A stretch of 20,709 nucleotides of DNA. It comes from a virus. Below, piece by piece: positions 694 through 20,709 of the stretch. Where the stretch lies: IMG/VR virus record IMGVR_UViG_3300005529_000111, positions 1-20,709 of that record, one strand, 5' to 3'. The notes under the pieces are model-generated. The model worked only from the letters and a program-made list of their open reading frames with translations. It was not told the origin of the DNA and ran no database searches. Each line of letters begins with the position of its first letter. Position 1 is the first letter of the stretch. The translations under genes and the position numbers were made by a program.

Positions 694-2058
694 ATGATCC
701 TTCGCTCGTTAGGCCGCATCGCTGCTGTAGCCACGGTGCTGTACGCCGTCTCCAGCTTAGCGCAATCTACAAAGATCTCGGATCTTCCGTCGACCAGTAG
801 TGTCGGGTCATCGGACATCTTTCCGCTGGTGCAGGGCGGCACTACGAAACAGGTCTCGTTTTCCGACTTTAAAACATCCCTGAATCTTGGCGACGTGGTC
901 GGACCGGCCTCGGCGACGGATTTTGCTTTTCCGATGTTCGACGGGACGACCGGAAAACTCCTGAAGGATTCGTCAGTCACCAGCGATGCGGTAGGTACGC
1001 TTTATAACACGCACACAGCTTCTTTCGGTGGAGAATCCGTAGCTCTACAACTTACCAGTAACTATGGAGGAGGAGCTCCAAGCAACGGATTTGGAGAATA
1101 TATCCAATTCAGACTGGAATCCAGCACTACGAATGCGCGCGATGCGGGGCGGTTGTCGGTGGTCTGGTCTAATGCAACTGACGCAGCGCGTAGCGCGTAC
1201 ATGGACTTCCAGCTGGTCAATAACGCGGCGGCCGCAGCGAGCAAGATGCGGCTCCGGCCTTCGGGCAGCCTGTCTGTAGGCAACACTACCGATCCTGGCA
1301 CTGGTGGAATCATCATCGCGGATACTGGCTTTTGGGTCGGCACATCCGCCTCAACATCCGGCAAAATGATGCAGAGCGACGGATCCAAGTTCGCGGACTC
1401 CGCCGCCACCTGGCCTTCCACTGGAACGAATGGTCAAGCAGTTATTTTTGACGGCACAGACTTCATAGCTTCAACCAACGCCGTCGAGAATGACGCGCTG
1501 AATGCCTACCAGGTTTTAGGAAGCGCCATTAAAGGGCACACAGTCGGCGTAGGGTTGGATCGGGTTTCATCTTCCTTCACGATGGTCGATTCCCAGGCGC
1601 AATACGTGTCGATTTGGTTGCCGGTCCGGCAAACTCTCACAGGCGTAAAATGGTATCAGCAAACCGTCGGCAACTACACCGGCGACAACAATAACAAGGT
1701 CGGTCTGTACACTTATTCCGGCGGCACATTAACGAGAGTCGCCCAATCCACGAACGACGCGGCGCTCTGGTCCCAGGCAGGCGGGAACGTGGTTAAGCAA
1801 AAAGCGTTCAGCTCCACGTACGACGCCCAGCCTGGTCTCTATTTCGTCGCTCTGCTCTACAACAACTCCGCTCAGACAACCGCTCCAGTCATAGGCGCGG
1901 CATCAGCCATTGGTAACGCAGGGATTGCGGCTGGCGATTTCACGAATTCCGCGAAGCTTTGGGGAAATGTAGGAGCTCAGACCGATTTGCCCTCGACGCA
2001 AGCCAGCAGCGGACTCACCACTGCAACGGCGCAAAATATTTGGGTCGCCGTTTACTAG
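694..2058 (+). CDS. Probable phage tail fibre protein with signal-like N-terminus
   Basis: Encodes 454 residues. After a hydrophobic N-terminus (about residues 5-23, ending SSLAQS) comes KISDLPSTSSVGSSDIFPLV followed by QGGTTKQVSF. That start is typical of tail fibre and host-recognition proteins (K-I-S-x-L-P ... D-x-x-P-V-V-Q-G-G). The middle is Gly/Ser/Thr-rich with many alternating beta patterns. The last 150 or so residues (VGLDRVSSSFTMVDS onward) look like a globular beta-sandwich domain that could bind a receptor or glycan. The start is well set by GGAGG at 684-688, five bases upstream of ATG. A signal peptide is odd on a virion protein, and part of it is encoded by a REP-like element (725-749), so it may be fortuitous. 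Fibre is the best call; which tail part it forms is unknown. Confidence 0.7.
   Translation: MILRSLGRIAAVATVLYAVSSLAQSTKISDLPSTSSVGSSDIFPLVQGGTTKQVSFSDFKTSLNLGDVVGPASATDFAFPMFDGTTGKLLKDSSVTSDAVGTLYNTHTASFGGESVALQLTSNYGGGAPSNGFGEYIQFRLESSTTNARDAGRLSVVWSNATDAARSAYMDFQLVNNAAAAASKMRLRPSGSLSVGNTTDPGTGGIIIADTGFWVGTSASTSGKMMQSDGSKFADSAATWPSTGTNGQAVIFDGTDFIASTNAVENDALNAYQVLGSAIKGHTVGVGLDRVSSSFTMVDSQAQYVSIWLPVRQTLTGVKWYQQTVGNYTGDNNNKVGLYTYSGGTLTRVAQSTNDAALWSQAGGNVVKQKAFSSTYDAQPGLYFVALLYNNSAQTTAPVIGAASAIGNAGIAAGDFTNSAKLWGNVGAQTDLPSTQASSGLTTATAQNIWVAVY
725..749 (+). repeat. REP-like hairpin element, degenerate copy inside a gene
   Basis: Matches the element at 13530-13554 at 21 of 25 positions, beginning CTGTAGCCACGG. 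The hairpin arms ACGGTGC and ACGCCGT pair with one G-U and one mismatch around a TGT loop. It is read in frame as residues AVATVLYAV in the hydrophobic N-terminus of the fibre-like protein. Confidence 0.5.
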
Positions 2059-2060
2059 CC

Positions 2061-3245
2061 GTGACATTCACTCCAGGCCAGCTCACGACCGAGGCCGGGG
2101 ACATTCTCACGACTGAATCCGGCGCCGGCCTGATGACCGAGCCGGCAACCTGGTATGGCGTTGAGAATGCGTCGCTCTCGTTCGCTGGCGATCCGCTAAA
2201 GCAAACGTCGAAACTTTTGAGCGGCGTCCTTTCATTCGCTGGTGATCTCGCCACTCAGCTGGGGACCTTCGTGAAGGATCTATTCGGTTCGCTTGGTTTT
2301 TCAGGCGACGTCACCAAGAGCACTGCGAAGCTGATGAGTGGAGGAATATCGTTCGCTGGCGACGTGCTTAGGGATGCGGCAAAGCTGGTTGCCGGCGCTT
2401 TGAATTTCTCAGGTGACCTCACGAGTTTGCGTCTGTTCGTTCGCAGCCTGTCCGGGTCGCTCGCGTTTTCAGGCGACGCAAGCAAGTCAATCGCGAAGCT
2501 GTTCGCCGGCTCGGTCTCTTTCGTCGGCGATTACGTCAGAGATCCTGCGAAGCTGCTGAGCGCAACGATCTCGTTCACAGGAGCGATCGACACGATTCGC
2601 GCATTCGTAAAAAGTCTCGCGGGAACTCTTGGACTGAGCGGCGATAACAACCGATCGATCGCGAAAGCCATGGCGGGAATTCTGACTTTCGCAGGGAATC
2701 CGATCAAAAGCGTGACGAAATCTTTCGCCGGCACACTGAATTTATCCGGCGCGATCGGAGCATTACGCATCCTGCTCAAAAGCCTGGCCGGCACGCTCAG
2801 TTTCTCAGGCGAATCGACCAAATCGATCGCGAAAATATTCACAGGTTCGATTTCGTTCCTTGGCGACCAATTGAAGAATGCCACGAAGCTTCTAAGCGGA
2901 TCGCTTCCGTTCGCAGGATCCATCGCCAAAGAAATAGCCAAGCTCGTTGACGGTGCTCTGGCTTTCGTCGGCGACATTGCCGCTTTCGTACCGCAAACAT
3001 TTCAGATTGCGATCGGAGGCGTGCTGTCATTTTCCGGGTCCGTGTTCCGGCGCCTGGAAAATATTTTTAACCTGTCGCTGAGAAACCCGACGCAAGCCCG
3101 GTCTTCATTGCAAACACTTTCTGCGACCTGTGCAACCGCGATCGCAAAGGCGGCGTCGTTTATCCAAGCGCTCGCTGCGACCAACGATCTCGGCCCGACC
3201 GACAAAGCGACCAGCGATCCACAATCAACGGAGGACGAAGAATAA
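2061..3245 (+). CDS. Tail-associated protein of about 16 short repeats in a 56-residue period
   Basis: Encodes 394 residues from GTG 2061, just after the stop of the fibre gene. This start is preferred because the N-terminus VTFTPGQLTTEAGDILTTES resembles the TTE-G-D-L-TTE start seen on phage tail-end proteins; the frame is open further upstream. From about residue 35 nearly the whole protein is tandem units of 18-22 residues with the pattern (S/T)L-x-F-(S/A)-G-(D/S) then K-x-x-A-K-L-hydrophobic-(S/A)-G. Lengths run 20-18-18 four times, giving a 56-residue super-repeat in which the long unit carries an extra hydrophobic helix-like part (RLFVRSL, RAFVKSL, RILLKSL). The last 50 residues are Ala/Thr-rich and end acidic. 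Position suggests a tail fibre or tail tip component. Similar Phe-Gly repeat proteins occur in phages without a known role. Confidence 0.6.
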   Translation: MTFTPGQLTTEAGDILTTESGAGLMTEPATWYGVENASLSFAGDPLKQTSKLLSGVLSFAGDLATQLGTFVKDLFGSLGFSGDVTKSTAKLMSGGISFAGDVLRDAAKLVAGALNFSGDLTSLRLFVRSLSGSLAFSGDASKSIAKLFAGSVSFVGDYVRDPAKLLSATISFTGAIDTIRAFVKSLAGTLGLSGDNNRSIAKAMAGILTFAGNPIKSVTKSFAGTLNLSGAIGALRILLKSLAGTLSFSGESTKSIAKIFTGSISFLGDQLKNATKLLSGSLPFAGSIAKEIAKLVDGALAFVGDIAAFVPQTFQIAIGGVLSFSGSVFRRLENIFNLSLRNPTQARSSLQTLSATCATAIAKAASFIQALAATNDLGPTDKATSDPQSTEDEE

Positions 3246-3558: not shown

Positions 3559-3772
3559 ACGGCCTCAAAATCGCCCTGGTCAGATTTTCGGCCTATCAGA
3601 GGTGCAGCCGCGGCTTCCGACGCGCTACGCGCGTTTTGCAGTGGGTTTGCAATGCCTTCTGCGAGGCGGCTACAAGCCGATTGCAGACCTAAAGAAAAAG
3701 AGTCCACTTTTCCGTTGATTCACTTGTAGCTGTAGCCGCTCGCGCCGACCGCGTCGCATTGTAGCCGCAGCG
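3559..3772. other. Repeat-rich intergenic gap before the lysis cassette
   Basis: No gene is supported here. The gap holds the inverted motif GCGGCTACA at 3666-3674, the forward motif TGTAGCCGC at 3731-3739 and 3760-3768, the second 29-bp repeat at 3702-3730, and the short palindrome CGCGCTACGCGCG near 3630. This makes it a cluster of dispersed palindromic motifs. It separates the tail genes from the lysis genes and is the largest non-coding gap in the window, so it is the most likely site for a promoter or a transcript boundary. I see no clear -35/-10 pair or T-run terminator. Confidence 0.6.
3702..3730 (+). repeat. 29-bp dispersed intergenic repeat, copy 2
   Basis: Shares 24 of 29 bases with copy 1, including the core CGTTGATTCACTT. 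It is followed directly by TGTAGCCGC, as copy 3 is followed by TGTAGCCAC. It lies 42 bases before the first lysis gene. Confidence 0.7.
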
Positions 3773-4673: not shown

Positions 4674-5191
4674 GCCCGCAGAACAAGATCATCGCAATCC
4701 AAACGGTGCTTGGCGTGGAGAAGGATGGTATCTGGGGACCGCAAAGCCAGGGAGCGCTCGATGCGCTCGTTAGGCCAAGTGAAGTCATTCACGCGGGAAA
4801 AGCTTCGTCTTTCGCAGATCCGAAGGACGTCGAGATCTTCAAAAAATATTTCGCCAAGTTCAAGGCGCAGGGCATGTCGGATGAAGACGCCAAGGCCAAG
4901 GCGTTCAGGTACGGCGATAACGGCATCGGTTGCTGGGGCGACGACACAACAGGCGCGTCGCCGTGTTGCGCGCTGACCAAGGAAGATATCATCCGTCGCT
5001 GGGGCAGTCTCGCTGCCGGCAAACATAAACTTGTTCAAGTCGCCGCGAACGATCGCGAGGTGACCTGTGTGCTCAAAGACATCAAAGGGCACATGAACGA
5101 AGCGATCATCGATTTGAATCCCGGCGCGTGCGCCGCGCTTGGACTCAAGCCGCCAATCATGGCGAGCTGCACCTGGAAATGGATCTCATGA
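4670..5191 (+). CDS. Endolysin: peptidoglycan-binding motif plus double-psi beta-barrel domain
   Basis: Encodes 173 residues. Residues 7-33 (IIAIQTVLGVEKDGIWGPQS) are a short PG_binding_1-like repeat. Residues 41-173 resemble RlpA/expansin-type double-psi beta-barrels found in phage lysis proteins: HAGKASSF, FRYGDNGIGCWGDDTTGASP, a CCAL segment, then EVTCVLKD and AIIDLNPGACAALGLKPPIM ending in a Trp-rich strand. Asp148 of IDLNP is the candidate catalytic acid. It probably cuts the glycan strand, as RlpA-type lytic transglycosylases do, but the exact bond cannot be read from the sequence. It has no signal peptide, so release through the holin encoded just before it (ATGA overlap) is expected. 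The four Cys are odd for a cytoplasmic enzyme. Confidence 0.75.
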   Translation: MSPQNKIIAIQTVLGVEKDGIWGPQSQGALDALVRPSEVIHAGKASSFADPKDVEIFKKYFAKFKAQGMSDEDAKAKAFRYGDNGIGCWGDDTTGASPCCALTKEDIIRRWGSLAAGKHKLVQVAANDREVTCVLKDIKGHMNEAIIDLNPGACAALGLKPPIMASCTWKWIS

Positions 5192-5211
5192 AGCAACGTG
5201 ACGTTGCATCC
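5191..5211 (-). repeat. 21-bp palindromic element, orientation B
   Basis: Exact reverse complement of 95-115, containing GCAACGT-G-ACGTTGC. It fills most of the gap between the endolysin stop and the start of the large secreted protein, which otherwise has no visible ribosome site. The hairpin ends about ten bases before that ATG and could affect its translation. Confidence 0.7.
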
Positions 5212-5216
5212 AAATT

Positions 5217-8200
5217 ATGAAACTTAAAATCCTCCTCTTCGCTCTCGCTCTTGTCCTGGCACTGATGTTCTTCGCCGCTGGCGCCGACGCCGGCACGACG
5301 TACAACTCCAACGGATCACCGGATGATATTCAGCGCATCCATGACACGCTTGCGCATGACGGCGACGTGATCACGATGCCGGCAGGCGCGTTCACATGGA
5401 CGCGACCTGTTCAGGTCCGAAAGAACATCAGCGTTCTCGGTGTTCCAGGACAAACGATCCTCAATGATGCGATTGCGAAGCCGGCCACTGAGCCTGGCGC
5501 GTTTCATTGCATTCTTCCGTCGCGCACAACGCTGTTTCGCATCAGCGGAATCAAGTTCAATGCAACCGGGACCGGCAACGATACCGGGTCGCTCGGCGAG
5601 ATCACCGTCGACGGCATCAGCTCGACGCCAAACGTGCGAATCGACAATTGCGAATTCAATTTGTTGCACCTGCGTCCCATCGTCTTCTTCGGCGGCATCT
5701 GGGGCGTCGTCGATCACTGCAATTTCACGATGGGACCGTGGGTCGGCGGAATCAACATCCGTCACTCCGTTTGGAAAGGCGTTGGAAACTACGGTGACAA
5801 TTCCTGGGCGGACGATCCGAACTGGGGATCTGAACAAGCGATCTTTCTCGAAGATTGCACGTTCAGGAATTTCAGCTCGGCGACGTGGATCGATGGCGAC
5901 GGCGGAATGCGCGTTGTCGCTCGATATTGCGACATCATTGCCGGAGAAGCTGGCAATCATGGCACCGAGACCGGGCAACGTTATCGCAGCGGCCGCACGT
6001 TTGAACTGTACCGCTGCAATCTCGACGGCGGGAATCTCATTCACAATTGGGCAATCCTGATTCGCGGCGGCTCAGCATTGATCTGGGGCAACTACGCCGA
6101 TCGATACGATTCCCTGGTAAAATTCCAGGAATTCCGGCTGTGGTTCCCGGCGACGCCATGGGGACAAGCGAACGGTCTGGACCCTTGGGATCTGAACGAT
6201 CCTCAAATTTTCGAATCCGGCACCGCGACCGGAGCCGGCGACAAGTCGATGACCGACTCGTCGAAGAACTGGCCGGCCGATCACTGGAAAGGCTACATCC
6301 TGCGCAATCTCACTCGGGGCACGTCGAGCCAGGTTAGCAGCAACGACGCGCACACGATTCACTTCGACGGAAATCCGCAAGGTCAAAGCATGACGTTTTC
6401 GCCTGGGGATCTGTACGAGCTGCGATGGGTTTCTGTCGTTCTCGATCAACCTGGTCACGGCAAAGGCGATCTGATCTCAGGAACTCAGCCAAGTCCGGTC
6501 GCATGGCCGCATCAGACTCTCGAGCCGGTCCGCATCTGGGATAACGAGCTCGGACCGAACTTCGGAAACGGAAACGGCCGGCCGATCATCTCGACTGACG
6601 CACAGAATCTCTCACCTAATCGCGACTGGATTTTTTGCGGCGAAGGCGACGACTCATGCGCACCGGATGATTACACGCCGTATATTTATCCGCATCCGTT
6701 AACGAATGGCGCAACGCTCACGCCAACGCCTGCACCGTCGTCAACTCCGACGGCTACAGCTACGGCACCTGTTAGTCCGACTCCGACTCCACCGTGTGGC
6801 GTAGTTGAACTGGTTGGAAGACGAGCTGCGATCACTCAGGCTGAATTGGATAACCCGAACGTGGACGGTTACACGATCGGTGATTCCTGGGCGGACTTGG
6901 CGCCTACAGCAACGACCTACGATTTTTCATACATCGACGCGCAAGCCACGAAGATTAAGAACGCAGGCAAGTTCTTTAACTTGCGCATCCAGACGGGCGG
7001 CGGCGGTCGAAACGTGCCGGCCGGAAATGACGGCAATGTTCCGGACTATGTGATTAACGCCGTCATCGGCGCAGGCGGACCACTCTTCCAATTCGTCGAT
7101 GGGAACAGTGGCAATGTGACGCGGTCGATCCCGTTGTTTTGGGATGCAACATTCCTGGCCAAGAAACGGCAAATGATTCAAGCCACGGCCGCGCATGTGA
7201 TGGCGCAGCCTTACGCTTCGGCGCTGCGGGTTTTCTACACTGAAGTCGCCAACTCTCAGACTGGCGACTGGAATGTTCCTGATAGCAAAACGATCGACGG
7301 ATTGCCGCCGAACAACAGTAGCGAAGTGAGCCGGATGCAAACCGCTGGCTATACCACTCAGAAAATCATCGACGTTGGCTGTGCAACAGGGAACGCGAAC
7401 GGAATCATCGATACTGCGATCGCTGCCTTCCCATCGAACGTGTTCATCAGTTTCGCCGTCGGTCAGACTAACTTCCTCGACCCACTCGGCAAGCGTTACG
7501 CGGCCTTCAGTGTGCTCTCAAATGCACGGGCGAAATATGGCAAGCGGGTAATGATCACTGTGAACAGCCTATCACAAAAGATCGCGGCAACTCAGCCTTA
7601 CTCGGGTCAGCCAAACGATCAGGCGTGGCAGCTGGCTTACGATGCTGTGAACGCTGGCGCATACCTAAGCGCACAGATGGTATCCGGCACGTCTGCGATG
7701 GACAGGTTCGCTGTGCCCGGATATTCCGGCACGCGAGGCGACGCGCTTTTAGCGGCAGCGAACGAAGGCAAAAAGTATGGCATCAAGTTCGCGGAAATTT
7801 ATGGAGCCGATGTAAGAGAAACCTCGGAAGGTGTGCCCGCTGCTTTAGCCGTGATTCACGGCGTCCTGGAGTGCACGCCCACTCCGTCGCCTACGCCAAC
7901 AGCAACAGCAACGGCTACGGCCACCGCCACCGCTACGTTTACTCCAACGGCCACCGCCACCGCTACATTCACGCCTACTCCTACAGCTACTGCCACAGCC
8001 ACAGCCACAGCCACTGCGACGGCAACTGTTAGGCCATCGCCTACGCCAACGGCTACAGCTACAGCCACAGCGCCGGCAACGCCGACTCCCGGACAATGCC
8101 GCGTTCCCGATCTGCGCGGCCGAAAACTCCGCGAGGCCACGTGGTACTGGACTCATGCCGGATTTGATTGCCGCAACATCATCATTCCGCCTGGCGGCCC

Positions 8201-8288
8201 GGACGGTGAAAGCAAAATCAGAGGTCAAACCATTTCGCCAGGATCAATGCGCGATTGCGCAACAACCGTGATCGAGGTCAAACCATGA
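5217..8288 (+). CDS. Secreted multidomain protein: beta-helix, glycosidase-like and PASTA-like domains
   Basis: Encodes 1023 residues. A signal peptide (1-25, cleavage after ADA) leads into a right-handed beta-helix of pectate-lyase type (about 26-500; NSNGSPDDIQRIHDTLAHDG start, then many N/D-C-x-F turns). A first Thr/Pro/Ala linker follows (about 501-526). Next is a TIM-barrel-like domain (about 530-885) with Glu676 in FYTEVAN and Glu860 in KFAEIYGADV, placed like the acid/base and nucleophile of clan A glycosidases. A second linker (about 886-959, TPT/ATATA) leads to a C-terminal PASTA-like domain starting CRVPDLRGRKLREA. It could bind and cut surface polysaccharide or peptidoglycan outside the cell. 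It follows the endolysin and overlaps the next gene. The architecture is more like a host cell-surface protein than a virion part, so acquisition from the host is likely. The substrate is unknown. Confidence 0.65.
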   Translation: MKLKILLFALALVLALMFFAAGADAGTTYNSNGSPDDIQRIHDTLAHDGDVITMPAGAFTWTRPVQVRKNISVLGVPGQTILNDAIAKPATEPGAFHCILPSRTTLFRISGIKFNATGTGNDTGSLGEITVDGISSTPNVRIDNCEFNLLHLRPIVFFGGIWGVVDHCNFTMGPWVGGINIRHSVWKGVGNYGDNSWADDPNWGSEQAIFLEDCTFRNFSSATWIDGDGGMRVVARYCDIIAGEAGNHGTETGQRYRSGRTFELYRCNLDGGNLIHNWAILIRGGSALIWGNYADRYDSLVKFQEFRLWFPATPWGQANGLDPWDLNDPQIFESGTATGAGDKSMTDSSKNWPADHWKGYILRNLTRGTSSQVSSNDAHTIHFDGNPQGQSMTFSPGDLYELRWVSVVLDQPGHGKGDLISGTQPSPVAWPHQTLEPVRIWDNELGPNFGNGNGRPIISTDAQNLSPNRDWIFCGEGDDSCAPDDYTPYIYPHPLTNGATLTPTPAPSSTPTATATAPVSPTPTPPCGVVELVGRRAAITQAELDNPNVDGYTIGDSWADLAPTATTYDFSYIDAQATKIKNAGKFFNLRIQTGGGGRNVPAGNDGNVPDYVINAVIGAGGPLFQFVDGNSGNVTRSIPLFWDATFLAKKRQMIQATAAHVMAQPYASALRVFYTEVANSQTGDWNVPDSKTIDGLPPNNSSEVSRMQTAGYTTQKIIDVGCATGNANGIIDTAIAAFPSNVFISFAVGQTNFLDPLGKRYAAFSVLSNARAKYGKRVMITVNSLSQKIAATQPYSGQPNDQAWQLAYDAVNAGAYLSAQMVSGTSAMDRFAVPGYSGTRGDALLAAANEGKKYGIKFAEIYGADVRETSEGVPAALAVIHGVLECTPTPSPTPTATATATATATATFTPTATATATFTPTPTATATATATATATATVRPSPTPTATATATAPATPTPGQCRVPDLRGRKLREATWYWTHAGFDCRNIIIPPGGPDGESKIRGQTISPGSMRDCATTVIEVKP
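7876..8094 (+). repeat. Low-complexity Thr/Ala/Pro linker-coding DNA
   Basis: A run of ACN, GCN and CCN codons encoding TPT and ATATA blocks between the glycosidase-like and PASTA-like domains. Near-identical sub-blocks occur side by side, for example CGGCCACCGCCACCGCTAC in two copies, so this DNA can expand or shrink by slippage without shifting frame. The opposite strand carries long spurious Ala/Val reading frames here. Confidence 0.8.
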
Positions 8289-8455: not shown

Positions 8456-8638
8456 ATGAACGCGGAAGCTTTCGAACGAAAACTGCGTGAGCGCGCGGCC
8501 TACCGTCGCGAGCAGCTCAGCGATGACATCGTAGCGAAAACGCTGGAGGAAGTTGCGAACGCGCTGCGCGAATCATCGGCCGAACCGGATCACGGATCAC
8601 GGATCACCGATCACGAAGCGAAGCAATGTCCTGGTTAA
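8456..8638 (+). CDS. Small charged protein of unknown function
   Basis: Encodes 60 residues and starts at the base after the preceding stop. The first 40 residues are a charged helix (AFERKLRERAAYRREQLSDD). The last 20 are read through a four-unit heptamer DNA repeat (8587-8614) and look unrelated to the helical part, so the original C-terminus may have been altered. It overlaps the next gene by 13 bases. Function is unknown. Confidence 0.45.
   Translation: MNAEAFERKLRERAAYRREQLSDDIVAKTLEEVANALRESSAEPDHGSRITDHEAKQCPG
8587..8614 (+). repeat. Tandem heptamer repeat, four units
   Basis: Three units GGATCAC and one CGATCAC lie head to tail. Seven is not a multiple of three, so gain or loss of a unit would change the reading frame at the end of the gene it lies in and alter the spacing to the next start at 8626. 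Confidence 0.8.
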
Positions 8639-9928: not shown

Positions 9929-10485
9929 GCAAACCACGCAGCGACGCGAAGCTTCTCAATCTTCCGCCGAAAGTGGAGGACCAGATCTGCGATTGGCTCA
10001 ATTACGGTATCGATGGAGATACCAAGTACGAGACTGTCCGCGAAAAAATTTACGAGAAGTTCAACATCCGCACATCTGTCGGAGCGCTTTATGAATTCTA
10101 TCGTCAAATCGCGGCGCCACGACGCCTGGCGAAAGCCGCCGCGGCTGCAGGCAACCTGAAAGAAGAAGCCTCAGCTCGGGGAGCTCATTTCAAGGAAGCA
10201 TCGCTCGCAGTGCTTCAACAAAAAGGATTCGAGATCCTCGCGCAGCAACACACCGATCCGAAAGAGCTCGTCGCTTTCTTCGGCATGATTCTCGATGCGG
10301 ACCGCCTCGCGATAGACAAGCAGAAGGTCGAGCTGCAGCGGGACCGCTTTGAATTCAGCGCCGCAAAGGCAGCACTGAAACACGTCCGCGAACTGAAGAT
10401 CATTTCATCCGACAAATCGCTGAACGAAGAAGCGAAGATTGAAGCGGTCCGCGAACGGCTCTTCGGCAAGGCACCGGGCAAGTGA
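9925..10485 (+). CDS. Terminase small subunit (DUF3486/Mu gp27-like)
   Basis: Encodes 186 residues. The N-terminal part (KLLNLPPKVEDQICDWLNYG and KYETVREKIYEKFNIRTSVG) is a helix-turn-helix-like DNA-binding domain. The centre and C-terminus are long helices (ASLAVLQQKGFEILAQQHTD, VELQRDRFEFSAAKAALKHV). This is the form of the DUF3486 small terminase family, which recognises phage DNA and presents it to the large subunit. The stop overlaps the GTG start of the large terminase, as is usual for this pair. Length is close to that of the family. Confidence 0.75.
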   Translation: MSKPRSDAKLLNLPPKVEDQICDWLNYGIDGDTKYETVREKIYEKFNIRTSVGALYEFYRQIAAPRRLAKAAAAAGNLKEEASARGAHFKEASLAVLQQKGFEILAQQHTDPKELVAFFGMILDADRLAIDKQKVELQRDRFEFSAAKAALKHVRELKIISSDKSLNEEAKIEAVRERLFGKAPGK

Positions 10486-11966
10486 CAAAGAAAAGGAAAA
10501 AAGCAGGTCCGCTAAAACGCGCGATCGCAACGGCCGCGATTGCAGCGACGGCTGCGATGGCTCCCATCTCGACGCCGGCCGTTCATGCGCCAGCCCCGCT
10601 CGTTCCATTCCGGAATTATCAGGCGCCGGTCTTCTGGGATCACAAGACAAAGACGCTCATCCTTCATTGGTCCCGCCAGATTGGAAAGTCATACACGCTC
10701 GCAGCCTGGGCGGTTGATCGGCTGCTGCGTTTCCCAGGGCGACTGGTCACAGTCCTTTCAAACTCGCGCGATAACGGCGCCGAGTTCGTTATCAAATGCC
10801 AGGAGGTTTGTCAGAAGCTCGGGCAAGTAGTCGAGGTCGAAGATCAATCAGTCGACATCACCTACGACAACATGCGGTTCGAGATCCGCGTGGTGGTCAA
10901 CGGAAAGATCGGACGCATTAAGGTCCTCGCAGCGAATCCTCGCACTGCGCGTGGTTTTTCTGGTGATCTGATCCTGGACGAATTCGCGTTCCACGAAGAC
11001 AGCCGCGCAATTTGGGAAGCAGCTGAGCCGATCATTTCGAGTAACCCGGATTTTCTCTGCCGCATCGCTTCTACCGGAAACGGCCGGCAGAACATGTTTT
11101 ATCAGCTGATCAGCGAAGGCCGCATTCCGGTGAATCGCATGAAGCGATCGGAAGCCTGGCGCATGGGCGAGCTGAAGATCTACAGCGCAATCGACGGCCG
11201 CGAGATTACGCCGGATGAAGCGCGCCGCGAGGCGAGCGACAAACGGGCCTACGATCAGAACTACGAATGCGCGTTTGAAGATGAGAACATGCCGCTGCTC
11301 ACGCACGAGCTCATCAGCGCAGCGGAACGTTCGCTCATCACGTTCGACAGCCAGGTGTGGTCGCCGGCCAGCCTCGCCAGGATGCTCCGCGCCGAGGGCG
11401 ATCTTGAAGCCGGTTACGACGTCGCACGCACGCGCGATCTTTCGTTCATTCCTGTTCTGGAACGCGTCGGGTCGATGCGAAGGACCATCGCTGGTCTCGT
11501 CATGGAAAACATGCGCCTGCCGCAGCAGCAGGAGCAAGCTCAGCTCGTGTGTCAGATGCCGAAGTTCCGGCGCATGGAAGTCGACATGACCGGAATTGGC
11601 CTCGGCGCTTTCGAATGGCTTGAGGATGAATTCGGCAGCGGAAAAATCGGAGGCGTCAATTTCGCTTCGAGCGAACCAGTCAGCGATCGCATTCGGACGC
11701 AGGGTCGCAAAGCCCTCAATGCACGCGTCACGGAAATCATGGCCACCGACCTGGTTGGTGTGTTTGAAGATCGGGCGATCGAGATCCCAGCAGATCCGGA
11801 ATTGCGCGATGATTTGCGCAAGCCGGAAAAGATCGTCAGCCCCAGCGGCCGCGTATCGATCGCAGCCGCTCGCGACGCTTCTGGTCACGCCGACAGATTC
11901 TGGGGCTACGCCCTCGCCGTACGTGCCGGCAACCGCGTCTCACACTACGCAGCTGTCCTGATATGA
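10482..11966 (+). CDS. Terminase large subunit
   Basis: Encodes 494 residues from GTG 10482 (GTGA overlap); ATG 10557 is an alternative. The ATPase domain shows an adenine-site-like FRNYQ (43-47), Walker A WSRQIGKS (63-70), Walker B LILDEFAF (163-170) and the coupling motif ASTGNG (196-201). The C-terminal RNase H-fold nuclease has YDVARTRDLSFIPV (Asp313) and EVDMTGIGLGAFE (Asp368) as metal-ligand candidates, followed by SEPVSDRIRTQGRKALNARV. It drives DNA into the procapsid and cuts concatemers, working at the portal encoded downstream. It fits the Terminase_6/Mu gp28-like group. The first 40 residues are Ala/Pro-rich and unlike a terminase; if GTG is the true start they form an unusual extension. 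Confidence 0.92.
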   Translation: MTKKRKKAGPLKRAIATAAIAATAAMAPISTPAVHAPAPLVPFRNYQAPVFWDHKTKTLILHWSRQIGKSYTLAAWAVDRLLRFPGRLVTVLSNSRDNGAEFVIKCQEVCQKLGQVVEVEDQSVDITYDNMRFEIRVVVNGKIGRIKVLAANPRTARGFSGDLILDEFAFHEDSRAIWEAAEPIISSNPDFLCRIASTGNGRQNMFYQLISEGRIPVNRMKRSEAWRMGELKIYSAIDGREITPDEARREASDKRAYDQNYECAFEDENMPLLTHELISAAERSLITFDSQVWSPASLARMLRAEGDLEAGYDVARTRDLSFIPVLERVGSMRRTIAGLVMENMRLPQQQEQAQLVCQMPKFRRMEVDMTGIGLGAFEWLEDEFGSGKIGGVNFASSEPVSDRIRTQGRKALNARVTEIMATDLVGVFEDRAIEIPADPELRDDLRKPEKIVSPSGRVSIAAARDASGHADRFWGYALAVRAGNRVSHYAAVLI

Positions 11967-11974
11967 AGTTTTTC

Positions 11975-12003
11975 GTCCCTATTTTCGTTGATTCACTTCT
12001 ATC
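11975..12003 (+). repeat. 29-bp dispersed intergenic repeat, copy 3
   Basis: Matches copy 1 at 27 of 29 positions. It lies in the gap between terminase and portal genes and runs directly into the REP-like hairpin, so the two form a composite element of about 53 bases. Confidence 0.75.
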
Positions 12004-12027
12004 TGTAGCCACGGCCCTGCGGGCCGT
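12003..12027 (+). repeat. REP-like hairpin element, intergenic copy
   Basis: Starts CTGTAGCC and contains a perfect 7-bp stem ACGGCCC / GGGCCGT around a TGC loop. Compared with the copy at 13530-13554 (ACGGCTC / GAGCCGT) one base pair differs on both sides, which keeps pairing. It ends 24 bases before the portal start, and a GAGG follows at 12037-12040. Confidence 0.75.
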
Positions 12028-12051: not shown

Positions 12052-14364
12052 ATGTCGATCGCCATTTCAATCTCGCTCGTTCTCGCTATGAGTTTCTTTG
12101 GCTCGATTAAGCAATCATTCGCCTCCGCGCTGCTTTCAACCGATACCGGACAAGCGCTCGTTCAAAAGTCCGCGCTCTCATGGGTTGCAGCCTGGCTGCG
12201 CGGAGACGACCCAGGAGATATCTCTGGCGATCGCCTCACACGGCCGTTCGCAAATTCTGTGTGGGTCCAGCGTGCAATCAAACGCGTCTCCGAACCAATC
12301 GCGGCTGTTCCTCTCGATTTTTACGAGCTCACTGCCAAGGGCAAAGAAGTTGAGATCTCCGATCCTGAGCTCGTCGCGTTTTGGGAAGCGCCGGCAATCG
12401 ATCGCAGTGGCCCGATGGATCGCGCGGATTTCATCGAAGCCACAGTCGGCTGGCTGAAACTGTGCGGCGAATCGTTTTGGATCCTCGACGATAGCTGGCT
12501 CACACAACGCTTCGTCAAACCCTCGACTCGCGCGCCGATCATTGTCGCGCGCCCGGAGCGGATGGAACCAGTTATCGCAGATAACAAACTAATTGGCTGG
12601 GTGTTTACCGATGCCGGCGGTCAACGGCATCAGCTCATCAAAGACCAGGTGGTCCATCGCAAATTCTGGAATCCATACGACGACATTCGCGGCCTGGCAG
12701 AATTCACTTCTGCGCGCGTAGCCAGCGAAGCGGATTATCTCGCCGGCAAATTTTCGCTGAACCTCAATCGCGCCAATGGCGATCGCGGTATCATCGCGGT
12801 CGCGAAAGGCGGTCAACCAACCGACGTGCAGCAGGAACAAATCACCCGCGCGCTGCGCGAGAAAGCGATCGCAGCCAGGCGCGGCGATTTCAAACCGCTC
12901 TTTCTCTCTGGCGACGTCGAGATCGAGGATCCGAAGGTTTCTTCGCCCGACGCGAACTTCGTCGCAGCGCGCCTGGAGAATCGACACGAAATCTTCATCG
13001 CCTTCGGCGTGCCGCCGAGCATGGCAGACGTCGCCGCGAGTTATTCAATCGGCCAGGCCAGCGATCGTTACGTGTTGATCGTCGAGACGTGCATGCCGCT
13101 GGCGAATGGAAAAATCTCAGGAGCGATCGAAGCCATTTCGAAAATGTTCCTCGCCGGCCGCACCGTCCGCGCGCGCTTCAATTTCAATGATCATCCCATC
13201 ATGCAACAAGTGCGATCGGAGCGACTCAAATCGCTCGATAGCCTCTGGCAAAAAGGCATGCCGGTCCGCGAAGCCAGCGATTATCTTGGTCTTGGGATTC
13301 CTGAATACTCAGGCTGGGAAATCGGTTATGTGCCGTACAACGTTCTGCCGGTCGGTGAAGCTGGATTGCCTGAGCAATTGCCAGGCGAAGAACAGCCACC
13401 AGGTGGAACCCCAGACGAAGCTGCGAATGATGAAAACGGAGACGCAGCCGCAGCGCAGACAATCGAAGAAATTTTTAAAGCGCGGAGGTCTCCGGTCCGC
13501 AATATCGAGCAAGCCTTCTCAGCCCGTAGCTGTAGCCACGGCTCTGTGAGCCGTAACGGAGAAGCGTCAACGACCACAAAGGATCGCGATCCAAAGCGCG
13601 TCGCATTAGCCAACGCGCATCTCGCCCAGCGCAAGCCCACGATCGCCGCATACAAATCCAAATTCACGGCCGAGCTCATGAAAGCCAGGCGCGAAACGCT
13701 GGCTAAGCTCGCGAAGCAGAACAAAACAGTGGAGGCAGGCGTGTCGACTTCAGTCCGCGCAGCTGCCGCCGACTTCCTGTTCGATCTCAATAAATTCAAA
13801 CAGGGGATTCTTGCCGGCATGCGCAACGTCGCGCTCTCTGCGATGCAGACTGCCGGCGAGCAGCTCTTTCAGGAAGTTGGTTTTGATGATCCGTTCGAGA
13901 TGCCGTCAGAAGTTGCGCTGCAATATCTGCACCTGCGCGAAAACCGTTTGTCCGATGCGAGCGATGAAGTTTACGACCGAATCAAAACTTCGCTGGAACA
14001 AGGTCTGCGCGAAGGCGAATCGATCGCAAAGCTGACGAGCCGCGTCAAATCCGAGTTCAACGATATCGGCCGCGGCGACGCGACGCGGATCGCGATGACC
14101 GAAACCTCAGCTGTTTACGGCGTGAGTCGCCAGGTGGCCATGAAAGAAGCCGGCGTAAAATACAAGCAATGGCTCACGAGCGGTCTTCCAAATGTGCGGC
14201 CGGCGCACACTGAAGCCGAAGAGCAAACCGTTGCGATCGACGAACCATTCCTGGTAGGCGGCGAACATCTCATGCACCCAGGCGATCCCGCCGGCAGCGC
14301 TGGCAACGTCATCAACTGTCACTGCGTTTCAATTGCCGTCGCAAAGAAAGAATCCGCATCATGA
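12052..14364 (+). CDS. Portal protein fused to Mu F-like head morphogenesis domain
   Basis: Encodes 770 residues from ATG 12052 (GAGG 11 bases upstream); ATG 12088 (MSFFGSIKQSF) is a plausible alternative that gives a more typical portal start. Residues of about 60-450 are an HK97-type portal: NSVWVQRAIKRVSEPIAAVP, GWVFTDAGG, FWNPYDDIRGLAEF, GVPPSMADVAASYS, ending near YLGLGIPEYSGWEIGYVPYN. The C-terminal part (about 640-768) is a Mu F-like domain: TSRVKSEFNDIGRGDATRIA, MTETSAVYGVSRQVAM, GLPNVRPAHT and NVINCHCVSIAV. The portal forms the DNA entry ring; MuF is a minor head or ejection protein. The junction is polar and holds an in-frame REP-like element. Protease and capsid genes follow. Confidence 0.88.
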   Translation: MSIAISISLVLAMSFFGSIKQSFASALLSTDTGQALVQKSALSWVAAWLRGDDPGDISGDRLTRPFANSVWVQRAIKRVSEPIAAVPLDFYELTAKGKEVEISDPELVAFWEAPAIDRSGPMDRADFIEATVGWLKLCGESFWILDDSWLTQRFVKPSTRAPIIVARPERMEPVIADNKLIGWVFTDAGGQRHQLIKDQVVHRKFWNPYDDIRGLAEFTSARVASEADYLAGKFSLNLNRANGDRGIIAVAKGGQPTDVQQEQITRALREKAIAARRGDFKPLFLSGDVEIEDPKVSSPDANFVAARLENRHEIFIAFGVPPSMADVAASYSIGQASDRYVLIVETCMPLANGKISGAIEAISKMFLAGRTVRARFNFNDHPIMQQVRSERLKSLDSLWQKGMPVREASDYLGLGIPEYSGWEIGYVPYNVLPVGEAGLPEQLPGEEQPPGGTPDEAANDENGDAAAAQTIEEIFKARRSPVRNIEQAFSARSCSHGSVSRNGEASTTTKDRDPKRVALANAHLAQRKPTIAAYKSKFTAELMKARRETLAKLAKQNKTVEAGVSTSVRAAAADFLFDLNKFKQGILAGMRNVALSAMQTAGEQLFQEVGFDDPFEMPSEVALQYLHLRENRLSDASDEVYDRIKTSLEQGLREGESIAKLTSRVKSEFNDIGRGDATRIAMTETSAVYGVSRQVAMKEAGVKYKQWLTSGLPNVRPAHTEAEEQTVAIDEPFLVGGEHLMHPGDPAGSAGNVINCHCVSIAVAKKESAS
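13530..13554 (+). repeat. REP-like hairpin element, in-frame copy inside the portal-MuF gene
   Basis: CTGTAGCC followed by the perfect 7-bp stem ACGGCTC / GAGCCGT with a TGT loop. Preceded by CGTAG, giving GTAGCTGTAGCC as in the gap at 3726-3737. It is translated in the portal-MuF linker as part of SARSCSHGSVSRNGEAST, a segment whose composition differs from its surroundings. Confidence 0.75.
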
Positions 14365-20097: not shown

Positions 20098-20709
20098 ATG
20101 GCCGATCAATTCGACATCAACGTCAGGTCGAAGGCCGATATCTCCGGCGCGAAGCAGCAAGAGCAGGCGCTTAAAGATGTCGAGCTGCAGGCCCGAAAAA
20201 CCCAAGCGGCTACAACGACAGCTGCAGCCACGCCAACTCCTCGTGCTGCTACTCCAGCGGCCGCCGCCGCAGCTGAGGCCGAAGCCGGCGCGAGCGTCAG
20301 CGCTCTTGGAAGTTTAATCGGAAGTTTCGCCGGCATCGGCATCCTGGGAGCGATCGAGTTTATCGCAGGCAAGATTCAAAGCTGGGCCGAGAATCTTCGC
20401 CGCACGGCCGAGGAACAACGTAGCCTGAACCGCGAAATCGATCAGGCTGTCCGCTCATACGAGAAAATTCGCACACCGGAACAGTGGGACCGCGAGAACG
20501 AAAAGATCGAGGAACAAATTCAAAAGCTGCGGGACAGACGAGCGGTCACTACCGATTCCCGCGAGATCGATCAGCTCAACCAGGAAATCGCGGCGTACGA
20601 GCGGCAGCAAACGGATCTAGCGATCCTGGCTCGCCGCGGACTTGAACGCGCGCAGATCGAACAACAGGTCGCCATAGCAATTCGTGGTCAGATCATTGCG
20701 ATCGCGGAG
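20098..20709 (+). CDS. Tail tape measure protein, N-terminal part (cut by window edge)
   Basis: The frame is open from ATG 20098 to the right edge, giving 204 residues without a stop. It starts three bases after the previous stop, with GGAGGAG about 15 bases upstream. It begins MADQFDINVRSKADISGAKQ, then a charged helix, an Ala/Thr/Pro-rich stretch (about residues 38-60), and a Gly-rich hydrophobic segment ALGSLIGSFAGIGILGAIEF. Long coiled-coil helices follow (ENEKIEEQIQKLRDRRAVTT, EIDQLNQEIAAYERQQTDLA). This composition, an early hydrophobic segment and the place after the tail tube genes fit the tape measure protein, which sets tail length. The rest of the gene is outside the window. Confidence 0.75.
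   Translation, partial: MADQFDINVRSKADISGAKQQEQALKDVELQARKTQAATTTAAATPTPRAATPAAAAAAEAEAGASVSALGSLIGSFAGIGILGAIEFIAGKIQSWAENLRRTAEEQRSLNREIDQAVRSYEKIRTPEQWDRENEKIEEQIQKLRDRRAVTTDSREIDQLNQEIAAYERQQTDLAILARRGLERAQIEQQVAIAIRGQIIAIAE

Follow-up and report, generated by a model that had tools for sequence, protein, structure and literature searches.

Two host-type GTAG REP elements in a virus fragment, one adjoining a 36-nt repeat and one translated within the portal gene

A host REP element is present twice in the 20.7-kb virus fragment IMGVR_UViG_3300005529_000111, once in translated form, as was established by analysis of the whole 20,709-nucleotide stretch (hereafter the window). The starting point was a preliminary description in which positions 11975-12027 were regarded as a 53-bp composite, a dispersed 29-bp repeat joined to a GC-rich hairpin, and attributed either to host-derived REP or miniature mobile elements or to phage late promoters. 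The underlying observation was confirmed, but the interpretation was only half right: the composite consists of a single copy of the repeat adjoined by an element of another kind, not of a unit present three times, and it probably comprises a host REP lying beside a phage-private repeat, two unrelated elements that share one gap. The REP-like features located in the window were as follows:

12004-12027, + strand: GTAG-headed REP element, TGTAGCCACGGCCCTGCGGGCCGT, with stem arms at 12011-12017 and 12021-12027
13531-13554, + strand: second perfect REP, read in frame within the portal/Mu-F linker
726-749, + strand: probable degenerate REP agreeing at 20/24 positions, at the start of the tail-fibre ORF, with a fold that was not significant (z = -0.99)
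3666-3674, - strand: REP head TGTAGCCGC without a good stem
3731-3739, + strand: REP head TGTAGCCGC directly after copy 2 of the 36-nt repeat, stem decayed or absent
3760-3768, + strand: REP head TGTAGCCGC, stem decayed or absent

The reported hairpin with a perfect 7-bp stem, into which the third repeat copy runs, was upheld (ACGGCCC-TGC-GGGCCGT, 3-nt loop, 12011-12027; -8.1 kcal/mol as ssDNA, z = -2.95) and, judged by its sequence, this half of the composite is a GTAG REP element of the host type. The GTAG foot, tested as TGTAGCC, was present at both 12004 and 13531, both perfect elements folded perfectly, and each was preceded by C in a 5' C|TGTAG arrangement. Two perfect REPs were recorded in the window against 0 expected, and TGTAGCCRC occurred 7 times against an expectation of 0.08, although the occurrence at 20206, in the last ORF, may be due to chance. 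The TGTAGCCGC motifs reported to follow the second repeat copy were found at 3731 and 3760, and the elements at 726 and 3666-3768 are probable degenerate REPs. Together with its preceding codon, the element at 13531-13554 encodes SCSHGSVSR; the phage has acquired a REP of this type at least twice, once in frame inside the portal gene.

For the hairpin half the suggestion of a host-derived REP was borne out, 24-mers identical to those of the window being dispersed in Verrucomicrobia genomes, with one exact copy (host locus L263) lying beside a RAYT gene. A scan of genome contigs with TGTAGCCACGGCYCTGNGRGCCGT returned at least 97 stretches, and among the matches listed nearly all were from Verrucomicrobia (Verrucomicrobia, Udaeobacter, Spartobacteria and Chthoniobacterales MAGs), the exceptions by title being one Nitrospinaceae and one Devosia MAG, possibly mis-binned. 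The TGTAGCCACGGCYCTGNGRGCCGT pattern occurred 2-14 times per genome in five host genomes and its reversed control 0 times, while the looser TGTAGCCRC-N4-CTGYG-N4-GY was present as many as 57 times in a genome, its control matching once in 24 genomes. In 649 kb of host loci, the inner stem was perfectly complementary in 132/145 elements with 14 different stem sequences, which indicates that it is the hairpin, rather than the sequence, that is conserved; these loci were retrieved by the exact REP pattern, and the commonest stems are over-represented in them. About two thirds of the host copies (98/145) had an inverted partner within 80 bp, whereas both perfect REPs of the window were single. The base preceding TGTAG was a pyrimidine in 94% of host copies, and the bases immediately following were mostly C, then T or C; unlike many host copies, neither perfect REP of the window had CT directly 3'. 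ORFs of at least 120 aa made up 84% of the host DNA and fully enclosed 62/145 REPs, and the host elements were present in many dispersed copies that were depleted from genes. RAYT (Y1 transposase, PF01797) genes were detected in 5/5 hosts tested, with REPs on both sides in inverted orientation at one locus (L285), and REPs adjoining the gene at three others (L263, L262 and L267). The host copies matched the defining features of GTAG REPs (PMC3733652, PMC3116915).

Repeat-finding on the window confirmed the three copies of the 29-bp sequence reported at 7-35, 3702-3730 and 11975-12003, all on the + strand like the genes, and revealed a 36-nt family. The repeat is accordingly about 36 bp in length, with sharp edges, and far beyond chance. 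Its copies, and the two genes that bound the gap containing the third, are as follows:

6-41, + strand: 36-nt repeat copy 1, at the edge of the contig and preceding the fibre block
3701-3736, + strand: 36-nt repeat copy 2, ahead of a putative lysis block
11974-12009, + strand: 36-nt repeat copy 3, in the terminase-portal gap, its final TGTAGC overlapping the REP head
10482-11966, + strand: terminase large subunit gene (terL), nearest relative L005 (76-79%)
12052-14364, + strand: portal/Mu-F fusion gene, nearest relative G015 (72-74%)

Pairwise identity between the copies was 28, 32 and 29 of 36 positions, with background levels beyond the repeat edges. The core CGTTGATTCACTT, identical in 3/3 copies, was the sole 13-mer with at least three dispersed copies in the window, and 0/100 third-order Markov simulations yielded a comparable 13-mer. 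The consensus was CGTCCCTRTTTTCGTTGATTCACTTCTAKCWRTAGC, copy 2 being the most divergent, and the 3' end read AATAGC in copy 1 and TGTAGC in copies 2 and 3. Each copy begins 3-9 bp past a + strand stop codon (TAA at 1-3, TAA at 3690-3692 and the terL TGA at 11964-11966); neither the first of these stops nor the short ORF preceding copy 2 need belong to a real gene. The positions and coding orientation given for the copies held, but copy 1 lies at the contig edge with its upstream gene unseen. At copy 3 the REP head overlaps the 3' edge of the repeat, and a pre-existing TGTAG/GTAG that served as the junction could have produced the exact abutment of the two elements.

A host-REP origin was not sustained for the repeat half: 213 Chthoniobacterales genomes yielded 7 single matches against 5 for the reversed control. 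Two scans of IMG/VR returned nothing and a third gave one chance-like match, in L004, which was rejected as kin because the 20-bp match is antisense within a reverse-transcriptase-like ORF, about one chance match being expected for the assumed collection size; the ORF concerned (L004 6336-7388) belongs to an unrelated viral contig. The repeat exhibited no fold, an Rfam search gave no match, a promoter scan of the gap that covered the sigma-70 type returned none either, and no Mor/C activator was detected in 12 records. The earlier proposal of a late promoter shared by the tail-fibre, lysis and head blocks therefore stood in respect of positions and orientation, but gained no sigma-70 match, no Mor/C activator and no relative carrying the motif. 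As a best guess, to which the location of its copies ahead of the fibre, lysis and head blocks and their shared orientation lend weak support, the 36-nt repeat may be a phage regulatory site, either a late promoter or an operator, which would perhaps be read by a non-sigma-70 or phage-encoded factor.

Were the repeat instead a small mobile or selfish element of an unsampled host or phage, both halves of the composite would be parasitic sequences collecting in spacers. The sharp edges and recurrent start 3-9 bp past a + strand stop are consistent with this, as is the related phage G015, where dispersed repeats of several families fill most late-gene gaps, one family or more being present also in host-order genomes. 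The repeat nevertheless contains no palindrome or terminal repeats, all its copies follow gene orientation, and no family of it was found in the 213 Chthoniobacterales genomes or in IMG/VR, so that we consider a selfish origin rather unlikely. That the repeat acts not as a DNA signal but by coding a short peptide, VPxFVDSLLxVA, is scarcely credible: a frame is open through all three copies, it starts at copy 3 with an ATGA overlap, and the peptide differences between copies 1 and 3 are conservative (V/I, A/S, I/V), but no start codon is present in copies 1 and 2, each of which is closely preceded by an in-frame TAA.

The genes around copy 3 place the composite at a boundary between gene modules. 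The closest named relatives of terL include Pseudomonas phage B3, at about 28-30%. Identities to G015 (IMGVR_UViG_3300044838_000165), which was picked up through a slightly degraded REP between two of its genes, were 69% for the protease, 64% for the MCP, 57% for the adaptor, 43% for the neck protein and 80% for the lysin; G015 encodes a transposase (phrog_310), a DNA transposition protein (phrog_296), Mu Gam and a DNA methyltransferase, and is Mu-like. Since terL is L005-like and the portal G015-like, the modules that meet at the terL-portal gap differ in their nearest relatives, and both the REP and copy 3 of the repeat sit in this gap. Copy 3 lies exactly between the two modules, and the G015 terminase is only 29% identical, an arrangement that would suit a repeat acting as a module linker, in which short homology serves block exchange and the copies mark mosaic junctions; L005 and G015, however, both lack the repeat at the junction, where a shared linker would need it, and we regard this role for the repeat as very unlikely.

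The translated REP at 13531 falls between the portal domain (residues 72-402) and the Mu-F domain (residues 643-760), in a linker with the peptide FSARSCSHGSVSR. When aligned with the window, the linker of G015 proved to contain not the REP but CATTCTGTTGATTCTGTCAAAAAA, with a CAGAGGTCAGCGATCAG-type heptad upstream, both of which belong to families that recur in G015 spacers, and the same linker in L008 contained CACGGGCTTCCAGCCCGTG and ACTGAAA heptads; taken together, the three linkers indicate that the portal/Mu-F linker tolerates in-frame repeats.

Several further repeats were recorded in these genomes. The G015 gaps at 21394, 24844, 26467, 27567 and 28047 (L296 being G015 15501-30994) showed most late-gene gaps to be repeat-filled, the families present comprising palindromes headed by GTGGCACAG, which form inverted pairs and occur in host-order genomes as well, together with CAGAGGTCAGA heptads, ATCCGCGTAATCCGCGG motifs and GTTAATTCTGTCAAAAAA. 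A perfect 21-nt inverted repeat occupies positions 95-115 and 5191-5211 of the window and contains an internal palindrome (GCAACGTNACGTTGC); six other IMG/VR contigs (L167-L172) share the identical 21-mer, L171 having the palindrome three times, and the 21-mer begins right past a stop codon both in the window and in L169. This palindrome was rejected as a host REP, none being found in 59 Verrucomicrobiota genomes. A tandem heptad, GATCACG, at about 8586-8615, the end of ORF 8456-8638, is similar in kind to CGATCACCGATCA, which lies beside a REP in host locus L091. The 1023-aa ORF 5217-8288 contains a long Thr/Ala/Pro-rich array of 12-nt repeats (7884-8092), and ORF 1959-3245 contains repeated coding units at 2176-2974 with a consensus of about SFxGDxxKSxAKLxxG; the latter ORF had no Pfam or PHROG match and possibly specifies a repeat-built fibre or stalk protein.

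As to how the REP could have entered the phage, the hairpin half is probably one of the non-autonomous elements ascribed to RAYT (TnpA-REP) transposases. Cutting at CT by TnpA-REP and the role of GTAG have been described (PMC8266576), and a host RAYT would similarly recognise GTAG plus the hairpin on single-stranded DNA and cut at CT. The phage group is probably temperate and transposable, in which case a resident prophage would be part of the chromosome and could receive REPs via the host RAYT. We infer RAYT-mediated insertion into phage DNA; what was observed is which element this is and to which host group it belongs, that in the hosts its stem covaries and its copies form inverted pairs and flank RAYT genes, and that C|T marks the 5' edge. 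No Y1 transposase was detected in seven phage records, so that the RAYT would have to come from the host, and no transposase or integrase gene was seen in the window, itself a fragment.

A different explanation is that the hairpin serves as a phage terminator or mRNA-stabilising structure that has been under selection since its capture. It lies in a unidirectional gap 37 bp past the terminase stop, REPs occur mostly downstream of genes and are plausibly transcribed (PMC3733652), and in another virus contig, L069, phage REPs lie directly between genes. By way of contrast, the hairpin has no following U-tract, it is missing from the list produced by the terminator scan, which gave no intrinsic terminator at the gap, and the second perfect REP is intragenic; selection for such a function is in our view unlikely. 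With the entry of REPs through a host RAYT retained as the preferred account, we tentatively raise the wider possibility, which we consider less likely than not, that transposable phages of soil Verrucomicrobia have been repeatedly seeded by host RAYT/REP and other host repeats, not only in spacers but also in frame, the portal/Mu-F linker being a recurrent site; REP-decorated virion proteins would then exist and phages could carry REPs between hosts.

Across IMG/VR the loose REP pattern matched 88 stretches, most without complementary stems. Perfect-stem REPs of this type were rare, being present in only six other contigs (L068, L069 with two, L177, L212, L244 and L258), and near-perfect REPs in a few, for example L223 and L201. 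Generic host 14-mer repeats showed no excess in the terL relatives (71 bp against 70 bp for the control), from which it follows that carrying REPs does not characterise the terL clade as a whole; these relatives may have other hosts. No description of REPs inside phage genomes was found in the open-access literature, which only weakly indicates that none has been published. Most accounts of REPs treat them as chromosomal. The present phage, in which two copies are perfect and one of them is translated in a structural protein, offers a concrete vehicle for REP spread; its REPs would also make it simple to test the action of a host RAYT on phage DNA. Furthermore, the REP signature ties an uncultured phage to Chthoniobacterales hosts (Udaeobacter-like soil Verrucomicrobia), and is thus useful for host prediction.

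Phage Mu-type late promoters provide a repeated site ahead of the lysis and head blocks in gene orientation. The likeness of the 36-nt repeat to them is one of placement; the differences are its sequence, the want of a sigma-70 match and the absence of Mor/C from the 12 records. The GTAG REP/REPIN/BIME systems with RAYT (PMC3733652, PMC3116915, PMC8266576) share with the present elements the GTAG foot, a short GC-rich hairpin and dispersal in host genomes, and with the host copies inverted pairs and flanked RAYT genes, the REP of S. maltophilia being close in anatomy (23 nt, 8-bp perfect stem, 3-nt loop); the elements described here differ in that two copies lie in a phage genome, unpaired, one of them translated in a virion structural gene. 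REPs that are read in frame have been recorded in bacteria, and O. terrae, also a verrucomicrobium, has the most intragenic GTAG repeats (PMC3733652). The intragenic REPs of Opitutus terrae and the Rickettsia palindromic elements (PMC3733652) are likewise short palindromic repeats in frame, but these known elements occupy cellular genes, many of them for DNA repair or replication, whereas the present one occupies a phage portal/Mu-F linker. In the transposable Pseudomonas phage Ab30 there are hotspots of transposition next to BIMEs (PMC5977238), which independently ties this phage type to REPs: in P. aeruginosa, as here, where the terminase is distantly B3-like, a Mu-like phage is linked to host REP/BIME sequences; Ab30, however, inserts next to host REPs, whereas in the window the REPs lie inside the phage.
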